This document shows, in pieces, positions 3,041 through 44,914 of a stretch of DNA of 55,126 nt. The stretch is from a virus. The position numbers and the translations under genes are program-made. Under the pieces are notes generated by a model. The model saw nothing but the letters and a program-made list of their open reading frames with translations. It made no database searches and had not been told where the DNA came from. Location of the stretch: positions 1 through 55,126 of IMG/VR virus record IMGVR_UViG_3300048672_000495. One strand, 5' to 3'. Every line of letters begins with the position of its first letter. Within the stretch, counting starts at the first letter, position 1.

Positions 3041-3451
3041 AGGCTCTCCAATAATAAGTCCCGGTTACTCGATCCGGGAACACTACTAAAGGCGGTGTTA
3101 GCTATAGCCCCAAATCATTCTACTAGCCCGTACGTCAGATTTGGAATTGAGTACGTGACGATGCGTTTACCTTCTAACGCCAACCTACCATGCTAAGTTT
3201 ACTAACAGCACATGGATTTTCCCACATCTAATCTGCACATTATACTGATCTCTTTGAACCAGTATTTGTCGCCCCATTGCAGTCTGAAGCATGTCCTTTA
3301 TATGGCGGACATTTCCATTATTGGTTCCGTCGTTCTGGACCTCGGAGGAACCACTACCCGAGGGAGATGTATCTGGTCGGAGCATTCCAGATTTAGCGTC
3401 TTGCGATCCTCCTAACAGTGTCGGCCTTAGCTTTCAGCCCACCGCTTTACA
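3041..3451 (-). other. Structured non-coding tract
   Basis: 411 bases with no supported gene; overlapping open frames exist but lack SD sites and disagree in strand. Near 3056 the sequence TAAGTCCCGGTTACTC recurs almost exactly near 4060 (one change), in both cases followed by GGAACACTA. Further pairings include CCCGG/CCGGG, GGTTCC/GGAACC and TCTGG/CCAGA. This suggests a repeated RNA element; strand assumed from the flanking genes. Confidence 0.45.
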
Positions 3452-3847: not shown

Positions 3848-4288
3848 ATTACCTTTGTTAGTTTATTTTAGTGAAATGGGCCAGCGGTCCGGTCTCCCGC
3901 ATTGAAGTGTATATACACAGCTACTCACGATTGTATTATGACCCATAGTAGAATACACATCTTGCTTATGTGGCTTTAGGGCACGAAAGCAATCGCGACC
4001 CATAACTTGATTGAAGTATGGAAAACCATACTTCCTACCACAGATTATGTACTCTACTATAAGTCCCGCTTACTCTTTGCAGGGTCGGAACACTAGCCCT
4101 CTCCGACAGCTTGGGCACACATCACTTAGTTCGATCCGTAGCTTAGATGTGCAAATGAATCACCTACGGCTTCTGAATTAATCCCGGTTACCAAACTTCC
4201 GGGTTGCTCTAGATTTAAGTATACTTAAATCGGCAAGGCTCACGTTTCAATGAGAATCCTAGATCACATCCATCTAGTAGGGTTCTTT
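3848..4288 (-). other. Structured non-coding tract with 20-bp palindrome
   Basis: 441 bases without a gene. Contains the second copy of the TAAGTCCCGSTTACTC element (~4060), a perfect 20-bp palindrome at 4212-4231 (GATTTAAGTA and its mirror), a CCCGG/CCGGG hairpin at ~4184-4202, a CCGTAG/CTACGG pairing near 4137-4175 and a CTAGAT/ATCTAG hairpin just after the downstream end of the 4289-4573 gene. Strand inferred. Confidence 0.45.
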
Positions 4289-4573
4289 TTAAAGCTGCTT
4301 CTTCTTAATGCGTTCTACGATACCATCAATAAAAGCTTCGTCCTTTATAAAGGAAACTGCTTCAAGTGCGGAAAGTTTTGCCTTACCTGAAACCTCATAC
4401 TTATAGTCACGAAGTTCTTCACTAATAGCCTTTTCAACAGCAATTCTATGGTACTTTATAAACCATTCTGATTTTTTTACTTCTTCTACGATTTGAGCAG
4501 CAATTAATCTTGCCTCTATACGCGGTGGAGACTCAGGAATTTCAAGATACTTGCGAAGAAACTTTTTTAGCAT
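4289..4573 (-). CDS. Hypothetical helical protein
   Basis: 94 residues, almost entirely charged helix (IEARLIAAQIVEEVKKSEWF, EKAISEELRDYKY, FIDGIVERIKKKQL), so probably an alpha-helical cytoplasmic protein. It stands alone between two long non-coding tracts. No family recognised. Confidence 0.65.
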   Translation of the reverse strand: MLKKFLRKYLEIPESPPRIEARLIAAQIVEEVKKSEWFIKYHRIAVEKAISEELRDYKYEVSGKAKLSALEAVSFIKDEAFIDGIVERIKKKQL

Positions 4574-5481
4574 TTTATTATTAGTTAGTTGTTTGGTGGT
4601 CCATCAAGGTAACGATCCTCCTGTCCCGATGGGAAACGGGGTTACAGCCCGCGCACTCTCCTTAAGTGTCTAATGAACCAATATTAAAATATAGTAGCTA
4701 ATCGGCCATGCCCTGCTCCGGTTTACCGGCTACAGCTTCCCTCTTTCAAGTTTCTCCGATCGGTCCCCCAATCCCTAACTTATGCTTTGGGCTCTAAGGG
4801 TTTCTCTTACTACTATAAGTATTTTCTGAAGGGCCCGGACGGTTATTTGGGGCTCGGTCCCATACATATGCACGTTAGTCTTATATACTTTTAAATATAA
4901 GGTGTGTTCTGGAAAGGAGATAGTGGCAATTGTTTACGCGGTTGTCCCGTATATCAGAAAATATATTAAAGTATAACTAATACGACAGCATTGCCGCAAT
5001 GACTACCTTTTCAGTATGCCAGGATATCACAATTTAACATTCCTGCCGAGCTTGCGGGTCGGGGTCTGTGCGTGATTGCATAGGGCACTGTTAGTTATAC
5101 TTTAATATAAAAATGGGTCTACGAGTCCAATTGTATAGCTAATTCACAATTACGTAGTCTAGTCACGCCTCCACTTATCGTCAATCGGTATCGGAGCTTA
5201 TCCCGAATCCCAATCTATTGTAGCTTCATCGAACGCCGCTGACATACCGATCAGCTTCACCCATTAAGATTAAATAGTTCCTGGCCAGGCTAGATAATTT
5301 TCTCACTTGCTTCCGCCTACTAGTGACAAACAGGGGCAGAAGTATACGACTTCCGCGGCCTATGTCTCGTTCCCATTGTCTTGTATCCAATTATCTTACT
5401 ATTTAATCTTAATGATCCAGCTTACTTGATACTGGGCTAATAATTTGTGGCTATTAGCAGTGCGCCATTTCTCACTTCAGA
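4574..5481 (-). ncRNA. Large ornate structured RNA candidate (~900 nt)
   Basis: About 0.9 kb with no credible ORF and a dedicated minus-strand promoter immediately upstream (5488-5516). Two domains are closed by very long perfect stems: 17 bp (5262-5278 with 5398-5414), with a nested 7-bp stem (5293-5299 with 5389-5395), and 19 bp (4962-4980 with 5091-5109) enclosing ~110 bases that hold CATTG/CAATG and CCGA/TCGG hairpins. A third, weaker long-range stem pairs 4690-4697 with 4810-4817. Size, stem-rich domain plan and location among phage tRNAs recall GOLLD/ROOL RNAs; this is inference, not identification. Confidence 0.65.
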
Positions 5482-5487
5482 ATATAT

Positions 5488-5516
5488 ATTATAATCCAAA
5501 ATACTTCGCAATTCAA
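5488..5516 (-). promoter_or_regulatory. Sigma-70 promoter of the 4.6-5.5 kb ncRNA
   Basis: Minus-strand TTGAAT (5511-5516), 17-bp spacer, TATAAT (5488-5493). It lies in the gap just after the stop of the cytochrome-b-like gene and points only into non-coding sequence. Confidence 0.8.
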
Positions 5517-14790: not shown

Positions 14791-15082
14791 CTTATTCAAA
14801 ACGAAACCAGAAGAAAAAAAAGAAATTGTAACAGGTCCCCCTACAAGTATTACACCTGCACCAAAACTACCTGAGCCCCCAATGTGGACAGTCGGGCCAT
14901 CAAATGATGGTACACAAATAGTGTTGTGTATACAGCATGATTGTACAATCATTAGGATGTATATGAATGCAGAGGCTACGGAATCGTTGATTCAATCGCT
15001 TGATTCCCTTCTTCAGCCGATGTTGACCGTATTGCAAAAAAATTCGGTTTTAGAGCCATTTCCAACGATCGAAACAGCATGA
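14783..15082 (+). CDS. Hypothetical protein
   Basis: 99 residues. Starts MFNLFKTKPEEKKEIVTGPP, Pro-rich to about residue 35, then a small domain (QIVLCIQHDCTIIRMYMN) and a C-terminal helix. Overlaps the previous gene by 8 bases and the next by 4 (ATGA), so it belongs to the same unit as the HTH protein. Confidence 0.65.
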   Translation: MFNLFKTKPEEKKEIVTGPPTSITPAPKLPEPPMWTVGPSNDGTQIVLCIQHDCTIIRMYMNAEATESLIQSLDSLLQPMLTVLQKNSVLEPFPTIETA

Positions 15083-15378
15083 AGTACGATAATGAAACTA
15101 CCAAGAAATTAGTTGCTGATTACGCCTCAGGCGTGTCAGTTGCGCTCCTTGCGGAGCAATTAGACGTCCCTGAGCGCTCTATAATTGCCAAACTGGCCTC
15201 ACTTGGTGTATACAAGAAGAAGGAATACCTTAATAAACAGGGTGAACCGCCCATAAAAAAGGAAGAATACGTCGAGCGTATTGCAAATTTGCTAAAAGTC
15301 AATGTAGAACTACTAGAATCTCTTGAAAAGGTCAATAAAAACGTCTTAAAGATGCTAGAAGACGCATTAACTTCCTAA
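15079..15378 (+). CDS. Putative HTH DNA-binding regulator, paralog 1
   Basis: 99 residues. ADYASGVSVALLAEQLDVPE then RSIIAKLASLGVYKKKEY reads as a helix-turn-helix; the C-terminus is a helix VELLESLEKVNKNVLKMLE. The same fold and the core RS-x-IAKL-x(2)-GVY recur in the proteins at 16999 and 18110. Similar small proteins are common in T4-like and marine phages. A transcription-regulatory role is inferred from the fold and from the repeated operator-like DNA nearby. Confidence 0.7.
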   Translation: MKYDNETTKKLVADYASGVSVALLAEQLDVPERSIIAKLASLGVYKKKEYLNKQGEPPIKKEEYVERIANLLKVNVELLESLEKVNKNVLKMLEDALTS

Positions 15379-15420: not shown

Positions 15421-15550
15421 GCGTCGGAAGTCAACTGTGACTATTTTTTCATTCAAAACAGCCCAACCACAATAATTATGACCCAACCGCGCTAATTGCT
15501 TGCCGGAGGCAAGAGGCTGCGCCGCTTGGGGCGATTCGCTAAATTCTCAC

Positions 15551-15579
15551 TTGACAAATCTGCTCAGCACTGGTAAAAT
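15551..15579 (+). promoter_or_regulatory. Plus-strand promoter P0 (GGCGC class)
   Basis: TTGACA (15551-15556), 17-bp spacer, TAAAAT (15574-15579), then TTGGCGC. Same -10/GGCGC arrangement as the promoters in the 17.6-23.5 kb island. A degenerate TTACAT-TTTG-TTACAAT repeat lies downstream at 15600-15616. It is followed by a small ORF at 15666. Confidence 0.7.
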
Positions 15580-15665
15580 TTGGCGCCGAAACAGACTTGT
15601 TACATTTTGTTACAATTGAGCAAAAACTAAACCCCCAGAATCCGAAGATTAAGGGGGTTAGAAGT

Positions 15666-15854
15666 ATGACTAGTACTTTTTATATAGATATCTTGAGTCG
15701 TCGAAACTCTCAATCTCCACTGTTTTTTAAGAGCTGGGACTCTGCCAGGTTTATGCTCGGTAGCCGAGCACCAGCCGTATCGCGTCGTACTGGGTTTCTT
15801 TGTGTGGTAAGAGCTACTTACCTACACGTATGTGTTCCTAAGTTGGTACCATAA
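15666..15854 (+). CDS. Doubtful small ORF (62 aa)
   Basis: MTSTFYIDILSRRNSQSPLF with a GGGGG SD-like stretch before the ATG and promoter P0 upstream. However, the composition is unusual (many Ser/Arg), the sequence contains the strong hairpin GCTCGG/CCGAGC (about 15754-15768), and it runs into the structured RNA region, so it may be part of an RNA rather than a gene. Confidence 0.3.
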   Translation: MTSTFYIDILSRRNSQSPLFFKSWDSARFMLGSRAPAVSRRTGFLCVVRATYLHVCVPKLVP

Positions 15855-16838
15855 AGGGTTCGAGACCGCGTACTAGGTAACACAATATAACAACGTCTCC
15901 CGACGTTGGCTGGATCATGTTGGGTTGCCTCTGCATCCACGATCTGATCCGCAACAAGCTCGATAGCACTCCAAAGCTATCGCATTTAAGTCCAATTCGG
16001 GCAGGATTCCATCCTGGGGTGGACACTAAATAAACCGACTCTCACGGTATTCTAGATCTAAGTTTCGCTTGATGGCCCTTGCATGCTAGTCTGCGGCACT
16101 CGCTACACCAGTCTATATAAGGAGCTGCTCGACTGGTATCTGCGCTGCTCGCTAATCTTATAATTCGTCTTGGATTTGATTAAGATCCAATGTAACGTCT
16201 ACACTTATATTAACCTCCGGGCCGCATGTAGACGCCTCCCAGATTCTGCCTTTCGTTGTTGTGAGACTATTTTGCGATCTTCCCACTACTACTCGCAGCC
16301 GCTTATATGCCGGGCCAGATCAGACATCCTGGTTTAAGTCCTTATGTCAGAGACTACCAACTTAAGTTTTGGCAAACTAACTATACGGATGACACCAGAA
16401 TAGTCATAGGAGAGTAATCTCTTTAGGTAACAGGCACGCAAATGCTTTCGACCTTATTAGACACCTACGGTCAGGAGACTCAGAGAAATCAGACTCATCT
16501 GACTAATCTACGACTGACCGTTTCGACCGAATTGCACGGTCTCATCAGGATGCTTTAATTGGTACCCCTTATGGGTTTCGATCCCATCTGCACAACGTGA
16601 AAGGCTGTTGACCTCGCCAGAAGTCCAAAGGGGCATAAATAGGGGATGGCTGTCGACCTGGTATAATTTTCACGACACTTAGTTCATCTATTCCCAACCA
16701 TGTATGGGAACCAAAGAGCACCATCTGGAAAATTGTAGTATAAGCTCGCCGTCTACTCACGCTGCCTCTGCTTGACGTCCCTTTACAAGGTAACGTGTTA
16801 TACTACGCGCCGGTGATTCCGGTCTTTCTCTCACTTCA
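15855..16838 (-). ncRNA. Large structured RNA region with embedded tRNA-Glu
   Basis: About 1 kb of non-coding sequence read leftward from tandem promoters at 16845 and 16939. Perfect stems: 16468-16474/16514-16520, 16196-16203/16227-16234, 16107-16113/16131-16137, 16170-16175/16185-16190, 16002-16007/16011-16016, 15961-15967/15976-15982, and 15891-15897/15902-15908, the last capped on the minus strand by a GGGA (GNRA) tetraloop. tRNA-Glu sits near the 5' end. The design (tRNA plus ~700 nt of dense stems) resembles large ornate phage RNAs; identity is unproven. Confidence 0.6.
16560..16634 (-). tRNA. tRNA-Glu (anticodon TTC)
   Basis: Acceptor GCCCCTT/AAGGGGT, encoded CCA, D arm GACT-TCTGGCGA-GGTC, anticodon stem ACAGC/GTTGT with loop CTTTCAC (TTC), T arm ATGGG-ATCGAAA-CCCAT. 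The T loop begins with A instead of the near-universal T54. Located in the 5' part of the structured RNA transcript. Confidence 0.93.
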
Positions 16839-16844
16839 ACATCT

Positions 16845-16873
16845 ATTATACATGAAAAGGGGATGCGAATCAA
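16845..16873 (-). promoter_or_regulatory. Proximal tandem promoter for tRNA-Glu / structured RNA
   Basis: Minus-strand TTGATT (16868-16873), 17-bp spacer, TATAAT (16845-16850). The -10 flank TTTCATGTATAATA is identical to that of the distal promoter at 16939, indicating a duplicated promoter. Confidence 0.8.
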
Positions 16874-16938
16874 GACAATATTTATTGATCTGAATCGCTG
16901 CTTTTCTTCTTGTCGCTAATTCCCCAGTCCATATACAT

Positions 16939-16967
16939 ATTATACATGAAAGGAGCCCCAGGATCAA
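16939..16967 (-). promoter_or_regulatory. Distal tandem promoter
   Basis: Minus-strand TTGATC (16962-16967), 17-bp spacer, TATAAT (16939-16944). The -35 lies inside the terminator hairpin of the 16999 gene, so termination and re-initiation are superimposed. Confidence 0.7.
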
Positions 16968-16992
16968 GTGAGAATTTTTGATCCTAGGCTCC
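16952..16992 (-). terminator. Terminator-like hairpin after the 16999 gene
   Basis: Stem GGAGCC-TA-GGATCAA pairs with TTGATCC-TG-GGGCTCC, six bases after the stop codon, followed on the minus strand by only a short T run (TTT). Confidence 0.65.
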
Positions 16993-16998
16993 GCACCG

Positions 16999-17310
16999 TC
17001 AGGCTTCGAGAGCCTTCAGGACGAACATCAGAGCCGGACCCGTGGCCTTTTCCAGCGACTCCACCTGTTCTTCGGACGCGCCGACCGCCTTGGCGATCTT
17101 GGCAACCATTTCCGCCTTCAGCATCTCACGCTTGCCGGCTTCCTTGGCCTTGGGGACGTACACACCTTCCTTCGACAGCTTGGCGATCACCGAGCGTGCC
17201 GACTTGCCCAGCTTGACAGCCAGAGCTTCCACAGCCACACCAGCTTGATAGCCGGCAACCAGTTCCGCAACCTGTTCGGCGGAATAATTCGCAACCTTTT
17301 CAGCAGACAT
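16999..17310 (-). CDS. Putative HTH DNA-binding regulator, paralog 2
   Basis: 103 residues, homologous to the proteins at 15079 and 18110: LVAGYQAGVAVEALAVKLGK then ARSVIAKLSKEGVYVPK, with helix QVESLEKATGPALMFVLKAL at the end. SD AGGAGAG before the ATG and a clean promoter at 17370-17398. Codon choice is much more G+C-rich than in paralog 1 (for example GCC, CTG, AAG), so the copies have had different histories. Confidence 0.75.
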   Translation of the reverse strand: MSAEKVANYSAEQVAELVAGYQAGVAVEALAVKLGKSARSVIAKLSKEGVYVPKAKEAGKREMLKAEMVAKIAKAVGASEEQVESLEKATGPALMFVLKALEA

Positions 17311-17635: not shown

Positions 17636-17825
17636 GGGCGCGGCCAAATTATACCGCTTTACCACTGGCGCAGAACGCACTAAGTGTATTTTTTGTAGCA
17701 CTACCACTGGCGCAGCGCACTGCTTTTTTTCGACGTGAGCGCTCACTAACGTCCAAATGTGTGTAAGTGCTTACATTGAATGCGAGTGAGAATGATTCGC
17801 GTTCAGGGCCCGAATTGTAGCCTAT

Positions 17826-17875
17826 GTAACAGATTGTAAAAGTCATTGACACACCCCAATTTTATGTGATAAAAT
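17826..17875 (+). promoter_or_regulatory. Plus-strand promoter P2 with overlapping inverted repeat
   Basis: TTGACA (17846-17851), 18-bp spacer, TAAAAT (17870-17875), then TGGCGC. The perfect inverted repeat CCAATTTTAT-GTG-ATAAAATTGG (17856-17878) covers spacer and -10. A variant TTGTAA-type box lies just upstream (17826-17840). Confidence 0.8.
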
Positions 17876-17918
17876 TGGCGCGCCCGAAGTGAGTGCTCAC
17901 TTCGCTACCGGGCAAAAC

Positions 17919-17940
17919 AAAAACCGCGGCCGCGGTTTTT
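17919..17940 (+). terminator. Palindromic terminator ~50 bases after P2
   Basis: AAAAACCGCGG followed by CCGCGGTTTTT, a perfect 22-bp palindrome ending in T5. Functional in either direction; for P2 it would define an RNA of about 55-60 nt. Confidence 0.8.
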
Positions 17941-18660: not shown

Positions 18661-18735
18661 TTACAAACTGTTACAATTGCATTTTCCTACCATATGCCCG
18701 CGTGCATGTCAAGCAGTATTACAAACTGTTACAAT
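18661..18735 (+). repeat. Two copies of the TTACAAACTGTTACAAT box
   Basis: Exact copies at 18661-18677 and 18719-18735. Each is a direct repeat of TTACAA with a 10-bp period, the geometry of tandem binding by OmpR/PhoB-type regulators (known family behaviour; which protein binds here is unknown). A third, degenerate copy at 18754-18770 abuts promoter P3. Confidence 0.75.
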
Positions 18736-18753
18736 TGCCCGGCCTGGGGCCTG

Positions 18754-18807
18754 TTACATCTTGTTACAAAAAACCGCTTGACGCGGGCCAAAATTATATG
18801 ATATAAT
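18754..18807 (+). promoter_or_regulatory. Plus-strand promoter P3 with box and inverted repeat
   Basis: Box TTACATCTTGTTACAAA (18754-18770), 7-base gap, TTGACG (18778-18783), 18-bp spacer, TATAAT (18802-18807). The inverted repeat CCAAAATTATAT-G-ATATAATTTTGG covers spacer and -10; GGCGC follows. Transcription runs into the palindrome AAGTTAGTGAGT-ACTCACTAACTT and then the terminator at 18852. Confidence 0.8.
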
Positions 18808-18851
18808 TTTGGCGCCCGAAGTTAGTGAGTACTCACTAACTTAGTATATAA

Positions 18852-18882
18852 AATAATATGGGGCATATTGCCCCATATTATT
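18852..18882. terminator. Bidirectional terminator-like palindrome
   Basis: AATAATATGGGGC, 5-base loop, GCCCCATATTATT; 13-bp stem overlapping the stop of the 18881 gene. It can end the minus-strand gene and the short P3 transcript. Confidence 0.75.
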
Positions 18883-20537: not shown

Positions 20538-20606
20538 TTACAAACTGTTACAATTTCGGCGCGCATAGATTTGGCTAATTGTCAAGTGTTATTACAAACT
20601 GTTACA
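20538..20606. repeat. Two TTACAAACTGTTACA boxes upstream of the HAD promoter
   Basis: Copies at 20538-20554 (exact) and 20592-20606. Together with the copy at 20626 (attached to P4) they make three boxes in 105 bases, shared between a minus-strand and a plus-strand promoter. Confidence 0.75.
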
Positions 20607-20625
20607 CGGGCCATACTTTGCACCG

Positions 20626-20679
20626 TTACAAACTGTTACAATAAAGTGCTTGACGCGGCCCAATTTTATGTGATAAAAT
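20626..20679 (+). promoter_or_regulatory. Plus-strand promoter P4 with box and inverted repeat
   Basis: Box 20626-20642, 7-base gap, TTGACG (20650-20655), 18-bp spacer, TAAAAT (20674-20679). Inverted repeat CCAATTTTAT-GTG-ATAAAATTGG. GGCGC follows, then GTAAGTTAG-tgctaa-CTAACTTAC at the expected 5' end of the RNA. Confidence 0.8.
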
Positions 20680-20719
20680 TGGCGCAAATGTAAGTTAGTG
20701 CTAACTAACTTACGTGATA

Positions 20720-20860
20720 TTAAATAATAAGTAGGAAACAAACCCACGTTATTATTATAAGAATATCACCTATTCGAGTTTGCCCTTCGATGCAAAATGT
20801 TGCGGTACGGGTAATTGGTATTCTCAAATACCATTTACGATACTCAAAAAGGTTTTTCAT
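20720..20860 (-). CDS. Mini-protein with C-terminal membrane helix (46 aa)
   Basis: MKNLFEYRKWYLRIPITRTA then a hydrophobic end (DILIIITWVCFLLII). ATGA overlap with the upstream 41-residue gene. Its 3' end lies under the P4 transcript, which would be antisense to it. Confidence 0.5.
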   Translation of the reverse strand: MKNLFEYRKWYLRIPITRTATFCIEGQTRIGDILIIITWVCFLLII

Positions 20861-21668: not shown

Positions 21669-21703
21669 GCCTAGAGCATACCACGCCACGGTGAACAATT
21701 TCC

Positions 21704-21720
21704 TAGGTGTTTACCCTAGT
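21704..21720 (-). promoter_or_regulatory. GGGTAAACACCTA-box promoter element (copy 2)
   Basis: Minus-strand ACTAGGGTAAACACCTA, followed after 23 bases by a poor -10 (TATGCT). Upstream of metalloprotease gene 2. Confidence 0.55.
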
Positions 21721-21738
21721 GTGGCAAATTCAGCACGC

Positions 21739-21792
21739 TTACAAACTGTTACAATAAATCGCTTGACGCACCCCATTTTACTATGGTAAAAT
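21739..21792 (+). promoter_or_regulatory. Plus-strand promoter P5 with box and inverted repeat
   Basis: Box 21739-21755, 7-base gap, TTGACG (21763-21768), 18-bp spacer, TAAAAT (21787-21792). Inverted repeat CCATTTTAC-TAT-GTAAAATGG; GGCGC follows. The start of the RNA contains GTTACAA-ac-TTGTAAC and an inverted box copy (to about 21826). Confidence 0.8.
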
Positions 21793-21837
21793 GGCGCAAA
21801 TGTTACAAACTTGTAACAGTTTGTAACATCGCTTGAC

Positions 21838-22550: not shown

Positions 22551-22603
22551 AGTCGTTTCTCCAGTTGACGCATTCATTCTATAGCATCCAGCCAACAATA
22601 ACA

Positions 22604-22620
22604 TAGGTGTTTACCCTAGT
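22604..22620 (-). promoter_or_regulatory. GGGTAAACACCTA-box promoter element (copy 3)
   Basis: Minus-strand ACTAGGGTAAACACCTA, 23 bases before TAGAAT, upstream of the 22550 gene. Confidence 0.6.
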
Positions 22621-22626
22621 GTTGTT

Positions 22627-22681
22627 TTACAAATTGTTACACGTGCAGCTATTGACACGTCCCAATTATACGTGGTATAAT
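22627..22681 (+). promoter_or_regulatory. Plus-strand promoter P6 with box and inverted repeat
   Basis: Box TTACAAATTGTTACACG (22627-22643), 8-base gap, TTGACA (22652-22657), 18-bp spacer, TATAAT (22676-22681). Inverted repeat CCAATTATAC-GTG-GTATAATTGG; GGCGC follows. An inverted box copy lies at 22690-22706 and a terminator at 22722. Confidence 0.8.
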
Positions 22682-22721
22682 TGGCGCCAATTGTAACAGT
22701 TTGTAACAGTGCTTGACAAAA

Positions 22722-22745
22722 CAAAACCCGCCTAAGCGGGTTTTG
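22722..22745. terminator. Rho-independent terminator
   Basis: CAAAACCCGC-CTAA-GCGGGTTTTG. Works in both directions: it ends the minus-strand 22795 gene and would cut the P6 transcript to about 55 nt. Confidence 0.85.
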
Positions 22746-23338: not shown

Positions 23339-23410
23339 GGTTTGCCCTTTCGTGGCAGTGGTTGATTGACAATGTAAGTATAGGGCATGGAATAGCACAT
23401 GCAAGCACCT

Positions 23411-23474
23411 TTACAAACAGTTACAAAGAGTTACAATAAATATGTTGACGCGGGCCTATGCGCTGTGGTAAAAT
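23411..23474 (+). promoter_or_regulatory. Plus-strand promoter P7 with triple box
   Basis: Three TTACAA units in exact 10-bp steps (23411-23436), 8-base gap, TTGACG (23445-23450), 18-bp spacer, TAAAAT (23469-23474), then AGGCGC. The inverted repeat is only partial (CCTAT/ATAGG). The RNA would start with GTAAGTTAG-tgctaa-CTAACTTAC, the same hairpin as P4. Confidence 0.8.
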
Positions 23475-23514
23475 AGGCGCAAATGTAAGTTAGTGCTAAC
23501 TAACTTACATCGTA

Positions 23515-23784
23515 TTAGGGACCGGGGTAGTCTGTGCCGCTAGTGTCTGCAATGACTACCAGATGCGGGACATACTTATGATTACGCCTTGCAAACTCCC
23601 TATTCATAGCGGCGACTGCTTCTTCTGCTGTGTCATAAGCGGCAAGTCTAGAGCCTATGCCACCATGCATTGACGCACGGCTCATGTCAACGAAACGCAC
23701 ATCACGCCAGCCAAAAAATCCATGCTGTTGCATGATGTAGCGCGATCCCTCGCGCGTGATGATGCGAAAATGTTTCAGTTTCAT
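23515..23784 (-). CDS. Hypothetical protein
   Basis: 89 residues from the ATG at 23784, which overlaps the upstream stop as ATGA. MKLKHFRIITREGSRYIMQQ then a two-layer alpha/beta pattern with AAYDTAEEAVAAMNREF, as in small domains of phage accessory proteins. Function unknown. Confidence 0.65.
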   Translation of the reverse strand: MKLKHFRIITREGSRYIMQQHGFFGWRDVRFVDMSRASMHGGIGSRLAAYDTAEEAVAAMNREFARRNHKYVPHLVVIADTSGTDYPGP

Positions 23785-37984: not shown

Positions 37985-40900
37985 ATGGTAGATAAGACAG
38001 TTATTCCTGTAGAAGTAACCTCTAATGGTACTACGGATAATGAAATTAAAAAGGCAGATAAGTTATCGGCAGCTTATAAACTAGCTGCTGCTTCTGCTGC
38101 CTCTGTACGTACTCCCGCTGCTGTTGTTGCTGCTAAAGGTGGTGTAGCTAACGCTGCTGCTGCTAAACAAGGACAACAGGCTCAGGACTCTAATACTGCT
38201 CGTGGTATTGGTGGAATGACAGGTGCTGCAGGTAGAGATTTCGCCGCTCAAGCTCAAGGCTTAGGCGGACTTGTTCACGTCTATGCTACATTCGCTGCTA
38301 ACTTATTTGCTATTACTGCTGCATTCGGAGCACTATCAAAAGCAGCAGATACAACTAATATGATTAAGGGATTAGACCAACTAGGCGCAGCTAGTGGTCG
38401 TGGTCTTGGTAGTCTTGCTAAACAACTAACTGCTGTTACAGATGGAGCTATTTCATTAAGAGATGCTATGACAGCTACTGCACAAGCTAGTGCAGGTGGT
38501 ATGTCGGGTGAAAATATTCTAAGACTGGGTAAAGTAGCTAAACAAGCTTCACAGGCACTTGGTATTGATATGCCAAACGCTGTAAGTCGTTTAAGTCGCG
38601 GTATTACTAAACTAGAACCAGAATTATTAGATGAACTTGGTATTATGGTTCGTGTAGATCGTGCTAGTGAAGCTTATGCTTTAAAGCTAGGTAAGGCTAC
38701 ATCAGCACTAACAGATTTTGAAAAGCGTCAAGGTTTTGCTAATGCAGTACTAGAACAGGGTGAACAGAAATTCGGAGCAATTCAGCTCAATGCAAATCCT
38801 TATTCTAAGATTCTAGCAAGTACTGAAAATCTATTACAATCTGGACTAGAACTAGTTAATAAGTTTTTTGGTCCACTATTAGCTATTTTATCTACAAGTC
38901 CTACTGCACTGGCTACTGTGCTAGGTGGTATTGCAACTATACTTCTTAAGCAAGCTATACCAGCTATTGGTATGTTTAGACAAAATGCTAAGATAATGGC
39001 TGAAGAAGCTCATAAGAGAGTTGTACAACAAGTTAAAGATCAGCAAGAAGCAGCAGTTAGATCAGACGTTATAGCATCAACTGCTGCTGAAATTTCTTTC
39101 CAAAGAGAAAAGAATACAATAGAAAGAATTAGTAAATTAAAGAAAACTACTACTAATAAAGATATAGTTAGCGAAGCTTCTAGACAAACTATCAAAGGTG
39201 GAGTATTTGCTGCAAGTCCAGAACAGATGGCAGCACTTAAGAAAGAATCAGATATTCTTTTAGCTACTACTGATGATACGTTAAAGAAACAAGGAGAAAA
39301 ATTAGCTAAATATTATGCTTCAGCAGATAAATTAAGACAAGAAAATACAGCTAGAGGTGATGCTGCAGCGCAAGCTAATGAGCAAAGAGATAATAAATGG
39401 TATTCACATCAAGAACAGCTAACTAGAAATTTAGAGAAATTAAATAGAGCTTCTGCTAAAAGAATAGTACTATCTGGAGTAGCGGATACTGCTGCAACTT
39501 TAGGTCCTGCATATGCCTTTAAACAGTTAAGGGAAGAAGTAGGTAAACTAGATGCTGGCAAAGTATCTAAGGGATTTACTATGTTACAAGGTTCTATTAG
39601 CATAGCTACTTCAGCAGCAACAACTGCTATTAATGCATTTGGAGTATGGGCACAAGTAATAGGTTTAGTAGTAGCTGCAGTAGCTTTATTAGATGGCTGG
39701 CTTAGTACATCATCTAAACAAGCAGCAGAGTTTGCTACTTCAGTAGAGTCATTAAATGCTACATTTGATAATATAGGTCGTACATTAGAAGATATAGCTA
39801 GGAAACCATTATTACAACAATTAAGTGTTGAATCAGTTCAAGCTAAAGCTAATGCATTAGGTGAATTAAATGGTGCATTAAAAACTACTGTATTTAATTT
39901 TGGTAAATTACAAGAAGCCCAAAGTGGATGGGATAAGTTTTTTGATGGATTCTGGGATTTATTTGGAAAAGGTTCTGGCGATATACTTGCCAGAGGAATT
40001 TCTTCGTCTGTTGTAAATGCCTTTAAGGTAATGGATGAAGGTCCTGCTAAAGATGCAGCTAAAAAATCTCTACAAAATTTACTAGGTAAAGACATTGATT
40101 TTACTAATATCGATAATTTCAATGCAAAAATTAAAGATCTTGATAAATCTAAAATCGGAGAAATTGGTAAAAATATCTCTAGTATTTTAGATAAAGCTAA
40201 TAATCAAGCAGGTAACGCAGCAGCAGCCTTAACAGAGGCTAAAGCTGCTATGTCTAATGTAAACTTAGAATTTGATAAGTTAACTATAAGTGTTAAACTT
40301 ACTGATGAATTTACAAAGATGGGTACTGCTCTTAATGAAGCATCATTAAAGATTGGTACAGCCCTAAGAGATCCTATTAATGGGCTAGTTACTTTAAGAG
40401 ATTTAGCTGCGGATATGAAGACTATGTCTTTCCTACCAGCCGAAACATCTAATAGCTTAGCTAATTCTAGAAAAGAACTAGAGAAATTATCTATTGAATT
40501 ACAACTTGCTAGAAATAATCTTAGAGATATTAGTAATGAAAAAGTTAAACTAGCTAGCGTTAAAGGTGGTGGAAAAGTAGATTCTGTTGAATCCCAAGTA
40601 AGAGCAGCCCAAGCGCAGTTAGACTCTAGAAAAAATGAAGCTAAATCAGTATTAGTAGACTTAGAAGCAAAGAATAAGGATGCACTATCTAAGTGGGCAA
40701 AAGTAAGTATTGAAATATTCCAAAAAGGATTAGAATATTCTGAAAAAGGGTTAGCTAAATCTTTATCAGAAGCAGCTATTATTGCTGCTAAAGGATATAC
40801 AGATATAATTAAATCAGCTGGTGGGAATACCGCCGTACTAGATGCCTCATTACAAAATAAGACTATAGATTTACAAATTAGAGATTTGGAAGCTAGATAT

Positions 40901-43900
40901 GCAAATACAAATGCTTTACAACTATCTACTCTCGCATCAGAAGCTAATACATTAGCTCTTGAAAAGTCAGAACTGCGTAGAGAGATAGAAAATAAACAGG
41001 GTAAAGGATTAGACACAACTGCGTTAGAATTAACTTTTAGTAATATTGAAAAGGCTATCAAAGAAAACGCCTTAGCATCTACAACTGCTAAAGCAGGACC
41101 AGGTGCGGTATTAGCTCTTAATAGACAGTTTGGTGGAAAAAATGCTAATAGTAATGCAGATTCAGTAGAATTTGGTGCTGTAAGAAGATTAGGTCCAGCT
41201 ACTGAAAATGCAAGAGGTTTACAAGGACAATTAGCAATAAAATCAGCTGAAAAACTTAATATTGAACTAAATAAAAGAGTAAACCTAGTCAAGGAAGAAT
41301 ATAACGATAGACTAAGGATACTAGATTTAACTACAAGAACTCTTAATATACAGCAAAATGATATTAAGAATATCGAAAGTATTGATTCTATGTACAATAG
41401 TATTGTACAGGCTAAAAAAGAAGAATTACGTATTTCTCAAATATATAATGATGACGAGAAGAAACTATTAGCTAATGAAAGAGAAATAGCCTCATTACGT
41501 ATAGCAGAAGAAGCTGCCAGAAAAAATAAAGATGTTGGCGCAGTTAATGCCGCTATAGACGCCCGTGCTAAATTAACTGTTGAACGTACTAAACAGGAAG
41601 CGGAGCTTAGAGATAATCTTAATGCTAATAGTATTAAGAATATTAAAGAAAGAACTGCCGGAGAAAAGGCATTAGCGGAACAACAAATTTCAGATGCACT
41701 TAAGTTAAAAGATGCGCAGGATTCATTAATATCTGCTAGAGAATCTTCTCAAACTGCTGATATTAATTATAGAAAAGCTATAGGTACACTTAGTGAATCT
41801 AATGCTTCTATACTATCAACAGAAATTGAATTGTCAGCCCAACAACGTAATTTTGATAAAGAATCACTAGCATTAGTAAATGCTAAAAATCTAGCGTTAG
41901 CAGATATAAATGGTAAATTAGAGATTGCTAGATCATTAGCCGAAACAACTGAATCAAAAGCTAAGATAGCTGATTTAGAGGCTGAAAAAGCAAAAATTAT
42001 TGAAATTTCTGGTGTACAGAGGGACGCACTTAATTTACAAAATGAGTCAAGAATAAAAGCAATTAATTTATTAGAAGAACAAAACCAAAAGTTAATAGAT
42101 CAAGCCAATATAGTAGAACAACTTAATGTTTTATTTGGTAACATAGGCGTAAACTTATTTGAAGCTGTAAAAGCACTTCAATTAATGGCTGAAACAGATT
42201 CTGATTATTTAAGAAAGAAGACAGAATTAACTGATAAACTAAAAGATTCTAATGATCCGGAAGAAAATACTAATATAGCTATTCAGTTAGCCAAATTAGA
42301 AACTAAACATACTAAAGATCAATTACTAGGCATAAGTTCAGTAGCAAAATCTACTAAGAAAATGTTCTCGGAAAAAACTGCTGCCTATAAGGCATTCAGT
42401 GCTATTGAGAAAGTTACGTCTGCCATTAGTATGGCATTACAAGTAAAGGAAATGGCCGTATCATTAGCAGCATTACCAGGTAAAATTGCTAACGGTGTAG
42501 CTGAATTATTTGATCAAGGTGGTTGGGCTGGTTTTGCAGGAGCAGCAGCCTTCTTAGCCCTAATGGGATCATTAGGTGGAAAAAGTGCGTCTGTACCACA
42601 AGCTGGTATGACTGCTGAAGATATGCAGAAATCACAAGGTACTGGTCAATCATGGGTAGGTGGTAAACTTACTGATAATGGTGGAGGTACTTTTGGAGAT
42701 ACATCAGCAAAATCTGAATCTATTGTAAACTCTCTAGAGATTATTAGAGATAATACGTTAGAAGGATTACATTATGATGATGCTATGCTTCAAGCACTTC
42801 AAAGTATTAATAAAGCTATAGGTAGTACTGCTAAAAGTTTATATAGTGTTCCAGGATTACGTTCTGGTTCTATTTCTGGTATGGCTGATGTGTCTATTAG
42901 TAATAGTGGTATTAGAGGTCTATTTGGAAAGTCAACTCAAAAAGAAATTATTGATTCAGGATTATTAATATCTGGAACATTTAGCCAACTAGCTACTTCA
43001 GCATCTGGATTAGTTAAAGCATATGAAACTGTAAGAACTACAGTTCATAAGAGTGGTTTCTTTGGTATTGGAGCTAAAACTACTGTATCAGATTCACAAA
43101 ACTTTATACAAGTAGGTGCAGACGTAGAAAATACTATATCTAGTATTTTCTCAAACGCTCAAGATCTATTTGTTGCAGCCGGTGAAAAGATAGGAATGTC
43201 TGCAAGTACTGTTATATCTAAACTTAATAAAATAGATGTAGGTAGTGCTTTCGCCAGTTTACGTGGACTTAAGGGTGACGAGTTAGAGAAAGAATTCTCA
43301 GCAGTTATTGGTAATTTATTAGACAGTGCTGCTAATTCACTATTCGCTAATATGGAAAAATATCGCGAATTTGGTGAAGGAATGCTTGAGACTGTAATTA
43401 GAGTAGTTGATGGTGCTGAAAAAGTTAATGTAGCACTACATAGTATTGGTGTAAGTATAGTTAATATTGGTACTAGAAGCTTTGATGTTACGGAAGCACT
43501 TATTGAAGGTGCTGGTGGACTTCAACACTTTAGTGATCAGGTTAAATATTTCAGCGATAACTTCTTAACAGAAGCAGAACGTTTAGCACCTATATCTGAA
43601 AATGTTACTAAGGTATTAGGAGATTTAGGATATTCAAGTGTAGATACTAGAGATGAATTTAAACGTTTAGTACAAAGTTTAGATTTAACTACTGTATACG
43701 GTCAAGAAACATATCAAAAATTAATGGATATTTCAGGTGCTTTTGCAACCCTATATCCAGAACTTAAGAAGCTAATGACTATTGAGGAAGCTAGAAAAGC
43801 TATGCTTTCTCAAACTATTGAAATTCTTAAGTTACAGGGTAGAACTACTGAAGCGTTAACACTGCAAAGACTAGAAGAACTTGCAGCAATGGAAGACATC

Positions 43901-44914
43901 CTAAAACCAGGGCAATTGTACATTTACGCCCTACAGGACGAAGCCGCTATCAAGGCCCAATTAAAGACAGCTTACGAAAAAGAAAGTGCTGCTCTAAAGA
44001 GTACAATTAGTAATCTTAAGAGTGCAATTAAGACTTTAGCAGATTTTAGAGACAGTTTATTACTTAGTGATAAGAGTAACCTAACTCCGATGCAAAAGTA
44101 TGAAGAAACAAGACGTAAGGCCATGGAAGTAGCAGCTATTGCAAATGGTATTGCAATTACTGATGCTGAAATACAAGCTAAAAATGATGCTATAAATAAT
44201 CTACCAGCAGTATCATCTGCTTTCTTAGATGCATCAAGGGCTCTTTTTGCAAGCTCTGACCAATATAATGCAGATTTCCAATCTGTATTAGATATGTTAG
44301 ATAATACATCTAGTGCACTAACTACTCAACTGACAACAGCTGAATTACAGTTAGCAGCATTAGATACTATGGCAGAAATGATTGGTCTTATTGCAGATAG
44401 TAGTAAAACTACAGCTGAATTATTAATTGAATACAGAGATGCTCAAGCTGTAACAGCATTAGCAGCTGCTAATTATTCAGAAAATATTACAGCTATAACA
44501 GCAGAACTACTATCTAAGGCAGGATTAACTAATGAATTAATGGCTGTAATGATTGGCATTATGGATCCTAGTAAGCTAGGTACTGCTACTGGATTAATAG
44601 CTGCTAATACTGCGTCATATACTACTACGACAGCAGCAAATGCACCAACAATGGCTATTCCAGCACCACCAACTAGAGCAACGGCTATGTCTGTTACTCC
44701 AACACAAGCTGCTAATGATGCTTTAATGATACAAGTTGCTAATCTTACAGCAGAAGTTGCTGGATTAAGAGCAGATCAGCAAAACCAAACTGGAGCAGTA
44801 ATAGCCACAAACTATGATGCAAATAAACAAAATGCAGCTGCTGTTAATAATACTCTTACAGGTATTGTAGGTGCTGCAGGATGGTTAGCACGCACTAAGT
44901 TTGCTTTAGCGTAA
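37985..44914 (+). CDS. Tape measure protein
   Basis: 2309 residues, the largest gene. Ala/Lys/Glu-rich helical and coiled-coil sequence throughout, several hydrophobic segments (ALATVLGGIATILLKQAIPA, FGVWAQVIGLVVAAVALLDG, FAGAAAFLALMGS) and a Ser/Gly-rich middle. Sets tail length: at the usual ~0.15 nm per residue the tail would be roughly 340 nm. SD GGAG before the ATG. Confidence 0.95.
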   Translation: MVDKTVIPVEVTSNGTTDNEIKKADKLSAAYKLAAASAASVRTPAAVVAAKGGVANAAAAKQGQQAQDSNTARGIGGMTGAAGRDFAAQAQGLGGLVHVYATFAANLFAITAAFGALSKAADTTNMIKGLDQLGAASGRGLGSLAKQLTAVTDGAISLRDAMTATAQASAGGMSGENILRLGKVAKQASQALGIDMPNAVSRLSRGITKLEPELLDELGIMVRVDRASEAYALKLGKATSALTDFEKRQGFANAVLEQGEQKFGAIQLNANPYSKILASTENLLQSGLELVNKFFGPLLAILSTSPTALATVLGGIATILLKQAIPAIGMFRQNAKIMAEEAHKRVVQQVKDQQEAAVRSDVIASTAAEISFQREKNTIERISKLKKTTTNKDIVSEASRQTIKGGVFAASPEQMAALKKESDILLATTDDTLKKQGEKLAKYYASADKLRQENTARGDAAAQANEQRDNKWYSHQEQLTRNLEKLNRASAKRIVLSGVADTAATLGPAYAFKQLREEVGKLDAGKVSKGFTMLQGSISIATSAATTAINAFGVWAQVIGLVVAAVALLDGWLSTSSKQAAEFATSVESLNATFDNIGRTLEDIARKPLLQQLSVESVQAKANALGELNGALKTTVFNFGKLQEAQSGWDKFFDGFWDLFGKGSGDILARGISSSVVNAFKVMDEGPAKDAAKKSLQNLLGKDIDFTNIDNFNAKIKDLDKSKIGEIGKNISSILDKANNQAGNAAAALTEAKAAMSNVNLEFDKLTISVKLTDEFTKMGTALNEASLKIGTALRDPINGLVTLRDLAADMKTMSFLPAETSNSLANSRKELEKLSIELQLARNNLRDISNEKVKLASVKGGGKVDSVESQVRAAQAQLDSRKNEAKSVLVDLEAKNKDALSKWAKVSIEIFQKGLEYSEKGLAKSLSEAAIIAAKGYTDIIKSAGGNTAVLDASLQNKTIDLQIRDLEARYANTNALQLSTLASEANTLALEKSELRREIENKQGKGLDTTALELTFSNIEKAIKENALASTTAKAGPGAVLALNRQFGGKNANSNADSVEFGAVRRLGPATENARGLQGQLAIKSAEKLNIELNKRVNLVKEEYNDRLRILDLTTRTLNIQQNDIKNIESIDSMYNSIVQAKKEELRISQIYNDDEKKLLANEREIASLRIAEEAARKNKDVGAVNAAIDARAKLTVERTKQEAELRDNLNANSIKNIKERTAGEKALAEQQISDALKLKDAQDSLISARESSQTADINYRKAIGTLSESNASILSTEIELSAQQRNFDKESLALVNAKNLALADINGKLEIARSLAETTESKAKIADLEAEKAKIIEISGVQRDALNLQNESRIKAINLLEEQNQKLIDQANIVEQLNVLFGNIGVNLFEAVKALQLMAETDSDYLRKKTELTDKLKDSNDPEENTNIAIQLAKLETKHTKDQLLGISSVAKSTKKMFSEKTAAYKAFSAIEKVTSAISMALQVKEMAVSLAALPGKIANGVAELFDQGGWAGFAGAAAFLALMGSLGGKSASVPQAGMTAEDMQKSQGTGQSWVGGKLTDNGGGTFGDTSAKSESIVNSLEIIRDNTLEGLHYDDAMLQALQSINKAIGSTAKSLYSVPGLRSGSISGMADVSISNSGIRGLFGKSTQKEIIDSGLLISGTFSQLATSASGLVKAYETVRTTVHKSGFFGIGAKTTVSDSQNFIQVGADVENTISSIFSNAQDLFVAAGEKIGMSASTVISKLNKIDVGSAFASLRGLKGDELEKEFSAVIGNLLDSAANSLFANMEKYREFGEGMLETVIRVVDGAEKVNVALHSIGVSIVNIGTRSFDVTEALIEGAGGLQHFSDQVKYFSDNFLTEAERLAPISENVTKVLGDLGYSSVDTRDEFKRLVQSLDLTTVYGQETYQKLMDISGAFATLYPELKKLMTIEEARKAMLSQTIEILKLQGRTTEALTLQRLEELAAMEDILKPGQLYIYALQDEAAIKAQLKTAYEKESAALKSTISNLKSAIKTLADFRDSLLLSDKSNLTPMQKYEETRRKAMEVAAIANGIAITDAEIQAKNDAINNLPAVSSAFLDASRALFASSDQYNADFQSVLDMLDNTSSALTTQLTTAELQLAALDTMAEMIGLIADSSKTTAELLIEYRDAQAVTALAAANYSENITAITAELLSKAGLTNELMAVMIGIMDPSKLGTATGLIAANTASYTTTTAANAPTMAIPAPPTRATAMSVTPTQAANDALMIQVANLTAEVAGLRADQQNQTGAVIATNYDANKQNAAAVNNTLTGIVGAAGWLARTKFALA

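Follow-up and report, generated by a model that had tools for sequence, protein, structure and literature searches.

A candidate large phage RNA carrying tRNA-Glu and a predicted hammerhead ribozyme in its linker

A non-coding tract in the virus record IMGVR_UViG_3300048672_000495 probably encodes a large phage RNA that works in the manner of GOLLD and ROOL without being a member of either family, and that contains a hammerhead ribozyme cutting it in two at the linker. The record, 55,126 bases with terminase, portal, head and tail genes, was analysed over its full length and is called the window below. The hammerhead, which was overlooked by an earlier reading of this DNA (the first-pass annotation), begins directly behind the CCA of a tRNA-Glu, and about thirty related phage sequences share the layout. 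Comparison among relatives shows that the hammerhead, the tRNA and, in the relatives, the 5' and 3' domains on either side are under selection for base pairing.

The locus and the extent of the RNA

The tract lies on the minus strand between two phrog_1725 genes facing each other, and runs for ~1.2 kb from the second of two promoters, with a start expected near 16838, to a terminator-like hairpin. Its features, in window coordinates, are these.

16999..17310, minus: upstream neighbour gene, small DNA-binding-type protein (phrog_1725); the same neighbour is kept in relatives
16939..16967, minus: promoter 1, TTGATC-17-TATAAT, sigma-70-like; the relatives' equivalent drives a separate small RNA
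16845..16873, minus: promoter 2, TTGATT-17-TATAAT, sigma-70-like; expected to start the large RNA
16635..16838, minus: 5' domain, ~200 nt, structured, from perfect stems and weak model matches
16560..16634, minus: tRNA-Glu(UUC) with encoded CCA, from ARAGORN and a cloverleaf that covaries with relatives
16456..16559, minus: type I hammerhead ribozyme, from fold, covariation, shuffle test and a sub-threshold RF00163 match
16465..16466, minus: predicted cleavage site A16466/G16465, A16466 being H17, from position in the hammerhead core
15660..16465, minus: 3' domain, ~0.8 kb, several perfect stems including a GNRA hairpin (15908-15891)
15621..15659, minus: terminator-like hairpin AACCCCC...GGGGGTT, then TAGTTTTTG
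15079..15378, plus: downstream convergent neighbour gene, also phrog_1725 family; the arrangement is identical in relatives

The RNA of the relatives likewise ends in a comparable hairpin with a T-run, and gene order, terminator and reverse promoter element are conserved between them and the window. The first-pass annotation had drawn the element from 15855 to 16967; the RNA continues beyond 15855 to the hairpin at 15659-15621. A coding function was rejected, the ORFs of the tract being of 62-63 aa only. Compared with named phages by blastn, the tract gave no match, and none of the three short contigs returned by a portal-protein search for closer relatives of the window phage matches it.

An intergenic element, GGCGCCAATTTTATCACATAAAATTGGG-GTGTCAAG in the minus-strand reading, is present in seven copies in the window (15530-15660, 17800-17930, 18700-18870, 20570-20740, 21680-21830, 22580-22730 and 23400-23530) and also behind the large RNA in relatives. 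Its plus-strand reading is that of a promoter (TTGACR...TAAAAT/TATAAT) overlying a palindrome, and in many copies this promoter is aimed against the adjoining gene.

Other non-coding tracts lie on the same strand. The tract at 4.6-5.5 kb, to which the first-pass annotation had likened the RNA, agrees with it in general style but has no hammerhead. This long, non-coding stretch (4580-5500) starts with TGAAGTGAGA after a -10 box, like the tRNA-Glu/hammerhead tract, and ends in a tRNA-Tyr-like cloverleaf (~4690-4600, by eye; unreported by ARAGORN). Three further stretches without long ORFs (1500-2560, 3060-3450 and 3870-4310) contain many stems, and one of them a possible divergent tRNA near 2400-2305 (by eye); the sole Rfam family found in the three is tRNA-Leu (1816-1896).

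The hammerhead ribozyme

The elements of the ribozyme, all on the minus strand, are as follows.

16559-16549/16465-16456: stem I
16548-16542: core CTGATGA
16541-16537/16529-16525: stem II
16524-16522: GAA
16521-16514/16474-16467: stem III

Read as RNA, with a slash at the predicted cut, the sequence is AUUAaaGCAUC-CUGAUGA-GACCG-UGCAAUU-CGGUC-GAA-ACGGUCAG...CUGACCGU-A/GGUGUcUAAU. The full type I core (C3 U4 G5 A6 N7 G8 A9, G12 A13 A14, A15.1-U16.1, H17) is present both in the window and in the alignment of relatives described below, and the topology is that of type I, with helices II and III closed as hairpins and stem I open. Unconstrained folding of 16560-16440 gives stems II and III and part of stem I. 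A pairing descriptor run on the whole window has its minus-strand match here and a second match near 38.6 kb on the plus strand, and a single one of 200 whole-window shuffles gives any match; the second place (38578), which lies inside a long ORF (37985-44914), is probably a chance occurrence.

The covariance-model search proposed in the first-pass annotation returned only tRNAs at gathering score, with the hammerhead appearing below threshold under relaxed limits. RF00163 gives the window copy 22.8 bits against a gathering threshold of 34 bits, which is a detection rule rather than a defining property, and the score falls short because the model takes a short stem III and pairs the wrong bases.

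Relatives and covariation

A neighbour-protein search gave 46 loci, and a search with the hammerhead pattern, including its UGCAA loop, gave 51 stretches, of which ~20 distinct ones carry the large RNA and the rest are mostly minimal hammerheads. The window, too, has a hammerhead with the UGCAA loop in the linker between phrog_1725-type genes. In the 20-sequence hammerhead alignment (A1), 91.8% of cells are paired (77, 100 and 95.6% for stems I, II and III), and 16 of the 19 pairs, spread over all three stems, show two-sided changes. None of 500 shuffles equals the alignment in any of five measures, and slid registers reach at most 0.10 as against 0.57. Stretches 7-14 and 30-34 of A1 are invariant, the core-proximal pairs form in 20/20 sequences and no mispair stands beside the core; stem I in most relatives has only three sure pairs. 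The compensatory changes in related phages on which the first-pass annotation had made its proposal depend are thus present in the hammerhead, and they are found also in the tRNA and in the relatives' domains.

A third search used the relatives' 5' domain alone as query and left the hammerhead unused. It found seven distinct loci outside the hammerhead-pattern set (L002/L170, L162, L163, L165, L188, L202 and L207), and all seven carry a hammerhead core downstream, although in two of them, L202 and L207, the descriptor gave no match and core and stem II were identified by eye. Stem II is much longer in L002 and L163. Since every one of these independently found loci has the core, the hammerhead seems to be a constant component of the RNA rather than a by-product of the way in which the relatives were collected.

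Several observations concern hammerheads more widely. One 100,412-base contig holds two different copies of the tRNA-Glu/hammerhead RNA (L082 and L097), and three phage contigs (L069, L095 and L104) have between four and eight minimal hammerheads apiece, distributed along their length. The hammerhead pattern found one match in a genome contig collection, an unrelated minimal hammerhead. A general tRNA-then-hammerhead pattern gave 55 matches, five new ones of which passed stem and tRNA tests (L108 585, L110 6037, L117 2183, L137 7457 and L128 867); these hammerheads sit right behind phage tRNAs (Asp, Trp, Leu) on other contigs, without the large RNA.

The flanking domains

The relatives' 5' domain is built from two junctions that resemble each other and have the form GG-hairpin-CUUAAU-hairpin-GCC. 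Pairing in the second junction (A2) is 95%, with 11 two-sided pairs and a covariation score that 0/500 shuffles reach; in the first (A3) it is 86%, with 8 two-sided pairs; and in the 3' core (A4), which includes a pseudoknot, it is 93%, with two-sided changes in 8/13 pairs. These structures were read from the alignments, which favours the paired percentages by construction, and the weight is therefore on the two-sided changes and the slid controls. The first-junction model also matches the second junction at 23-31 bits (L066 6688-6754, L083 2556-2625, L162 4184-4253, L207 673-743), so that the two junctions look like tandem copies of a single motif.

In the window the stems speak for structure. 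Between 16838 and 15700 the scan, within its loop limit, counts nine perfect stems 7 bp or longer, as against 2.7 +/- 1.7 in dinucleotide shuffles, none of 200 of which reaches nine; the first-pass annotation had claimed at least seven, and its GNRA-capped stem is equally real (CAACGTC-GGGA-GACGTTG at 15908-15891). The minimum free energy of the whole tract has z = -2.9 (20 shuffles). Local 150-nt folding z-scores, from sliding windows over 1-24.4 kb, are mostly unremarkable across the tract and do not discriminate, and folding of the single sequence alone would thus not prove a structured RNA. Comparison with the relatives does support the earlier picture of a long structured non-coding RNA joined to tRNA-Glu. 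What has to be given up is the tRNA at its head, because ~200 structured bases, with for example a 9-bp stem at 16806-16735, separate promoter 2 from the tRNA, which sits in a linker between two domains.

How far can the window's own domains be matched to those of the relatives? At 16711-16648 lies a junction, GG-hairpin-AACUAAG-hairpin-GCC, like that of the relatives. The junction models R1 and R2, run on the whole window with default filters, give no convincing match; on a small stretch with filters off, R2 matches weakly at 16700-16647 (8.9 bits, E 0.02 for 501 bases) and R1 at 16715-16648 (3.2 bits, E 1.6), both ending 12-13 nt before the tRNA, which is the place of the junction in relatives. 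A hand-made junction descriptor finds this place alone on the minus strand, with 0.37 chance matches expected per window, a result that is only suggestive, as the descriptor was composed after the match had been seen. The 3'-core model R3, with its pseudoknot, has no match in the window, whose 3' domain is without a detected homologue, nor in certain relatives that do carry the hammerhead, L002, L056 and L083 among them. By these searches the domains on either side of the window's linker have diverged beyond the reach of the relatives' models, save for the one weak, correctly placed 5' match, and the assignment of the window RNA to the family consequently depends on its tRNA-Glu and hammerhead, on its promoter and terminator, on gene order and on that match.

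The linker tRNA

The window tRNA-Glu has a cloverleaf, a UUC anticodon and a 3' CCA, and scores below the Rfam tRNA threshold. The stretch comprising tRNA and hammerhead (16531-16636) shares 76.6% identity with L066 across 107 nt. The only tRNA that ARAGORN reports between 5' domain and hammerhead is tRNA-Glu(UUC), which it finds in the window and ten relatives (L003, L057, L058, L066, L082, L092, L097, L102, L165 and L202). In an alignment of seven of these sequences 98.6% of the cloverleaf cells are paired, with 14 two-sided pairs. It detects no linker tRNA in most other members; L088 has an Rfam tRNA match upstream of the hammerhead, and L071 a degenerate tRNA-like stretch. Being undetected in most hammerhead-bearing members, the tRNA is optional, as the hammerhead apparently is not. 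Among the matches listed when one relative's RNA was compared with named phages by blastn, only its tRNA-Glu was covered.

Promoters and an upstream small RNA

Both of the minus-strand promoters that the first-pass annotation had described as sharing a flank and pointing into the tRNA-Glu tract were found, and they share the exact 14-mer TTTCATGTATAATA, which has no other copy in the window even with one mismatch allowed (0.17 expected). The further claim, that tandem strong promoters imply high demand for the product, fares less well. In eight relatives (L003, L063, L066, L067, L074, L078, L091 and L100) the interval between the phrog_1725-type gene and the large RNA, upstream of the latter, holds a separate small RNA (~170 nt) that has a promoter to itself and a closing stem finishing in a T-run. 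The closing stem covaries (CAGTCG/CGACTG, CAATCG/CGATTG, read by eye), and the small RNA has no Rfam match in the scanned loci. Because the relatives' upstream promoter serves this small RNA, tandem promoters for one product are the less likely reading: a simple duplication was rejected, and promoters 1 and 2 probably belong to two units. The gap between them in the window is only ~60 bases, and the window seems to have lost the small RNA.

Proposed mechanism and alternatives

We propose that one RNA of ~1.2 kb would be transcribed from its own promoter and comprise the 5' domain, a tRNA-Glu/hammerhead linker, the ~0.8-kb 3' domain and an intrinsic terminator. The hammerhead would cut between A16466 and G16465, leaving a 5' piece of ~373 nt (5' domain, tRNA-Glu and ribozyme body) with a 2',3'-cyclic phosphate and a 3' piece of ~840 nt with a 5'-OH. 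Host RNase P and 3' nucleases may then free the tRNA-Glu, an optional passenger. The mature product would be a large RNA in two pieces, probably GOLLD/ROOL-like in action, whose linker is severed by the RNA itself; that it might form multimers is pure analogy with GOLLD and ROOL.

The main rival to this reading holds that the hammerhead is a tRNA-processing device that frees tRNA-Glu from the downstream RNA, much as has been proposed for theta ribozymes, which in gut phages are located at the 3' ends of tRNAs (PMC10879173), the flanking folds then being secondary. The window tRNA-Glu does end one base before stem I, a tRNA-Glu stands close before the hammerhead in L003, L057, L058, L066, L102 and L165, and minimal hammerheads directly follow phage tRNAs in L108, L110, L117, L128 and L137. 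The predicted cut, however, falls 94 nt beyond the tRNA end, so that the whole ribozyme would stay on the tRNA; in L082, L092 and L097 the tRNA is itself ~100 nt away; and most relatives that keep the hammerhead have no detected tRNA. The distance from cut to tRNA and the members without a tRNA weaken this explanation, which we regard as unlikely.

Alternatively, only tRNA-Glu and hammerhead might be functional in the window, with flanks of decayed or unrelated DNA. The failure of the relatives' domain models to match the window under default filters and the loss of the upstream small RNA fit such decay, but the excess of perfect stems over the shuffles does not, and promoter, terminator and a correctly placed 5' junction persist; we consider it improbable. 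Slightly less credible still is a highly diverged GOLLD or ROOL beyond the recognition of Rfam that has acquired a hammerhead in its linker. Phage location near tRNAs, similar size and a linker tRNA between a variable 5' and a larger 3' part would suit it (PMC12286853), yet at gathering score neither family matches the window or any of 17 loci, and up to E = 5 there is no match in the window tract (15500-17000), L097 or L064.

Extending the self-split large RNA beyond the window, we suggest tentatively, as a possibility we hold with less than even confidence, a family of self-cutting large phage RNAs in which a linker hammerhead yields two chains that stay together in a large GOLLD/ROOL-like assembly, tRNA-Glu being cargo that the linker may or may not contain. 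The finding bears on two questions of the field, the role of bacterial hammerheads and that of giant phage RNAs: a hammerhead with covarying stems, placed between the domains, goes with the large RNA in every member examined, which offers a concrete and testable role in the processing of giant RNAs. Other hammerheads like that of the window may be uncounted, given that the Rfam model scores a copy with long stem III below threshold.

Comparison with known systems

Hammerheads of phages and prophages are known (Perreault et al. 2011, PMC3088659). The present one shares with the type I class (RF00163) all core nucleotides, three stems, an open stem I, an NUH site (here GUA) and a phage setting. 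It differs in its stem III of 8-9 bp with a distal part of 33-48 nt, in its Rfam score and in its place behind a tRNA inside a large structured RNA.

GOLLD RNA reportedly goes back to Weinberg in 2009. It is the known case of a large phage RNA with a tRNA in the linker, as seen in some members; it lies near tRNAs, its 5' region is variable and its 3' domain larger, and its structure has been examined by cryo-EM (PMC12286853). All of these traits of location and layout recur here, and what sets the present RNA apart is the hammerhead in its linker and the lack of an Rfam match, a separation made by Rfam models. ROOL, a large structured phage RNA near tRNA islands with pseudoknots (PMC12286853), is similar in each of these respects, and here again the hammerhead and the missing Rfam match make the difference.

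Theta ribozymes resemble the present element as small self-cleaving ribozymes beside a phage tRNA. They are HDV-like, whereas the fold here is a hammerhead, which places it outside the theta class; the predicted cut is not at the tRNA end, and the ribozyme is part of a large RNA from which the tRNA is often absent. The literature searched, which included few subscription papers and no bioRxiv, holds no report joining a hammerhead, a tRNA and a large phage RNA. Phage hammerheads, small ribozymes associated with tRNAs and large RNAs with a linker tRNA are each already known; the novelty would lie in their combination.
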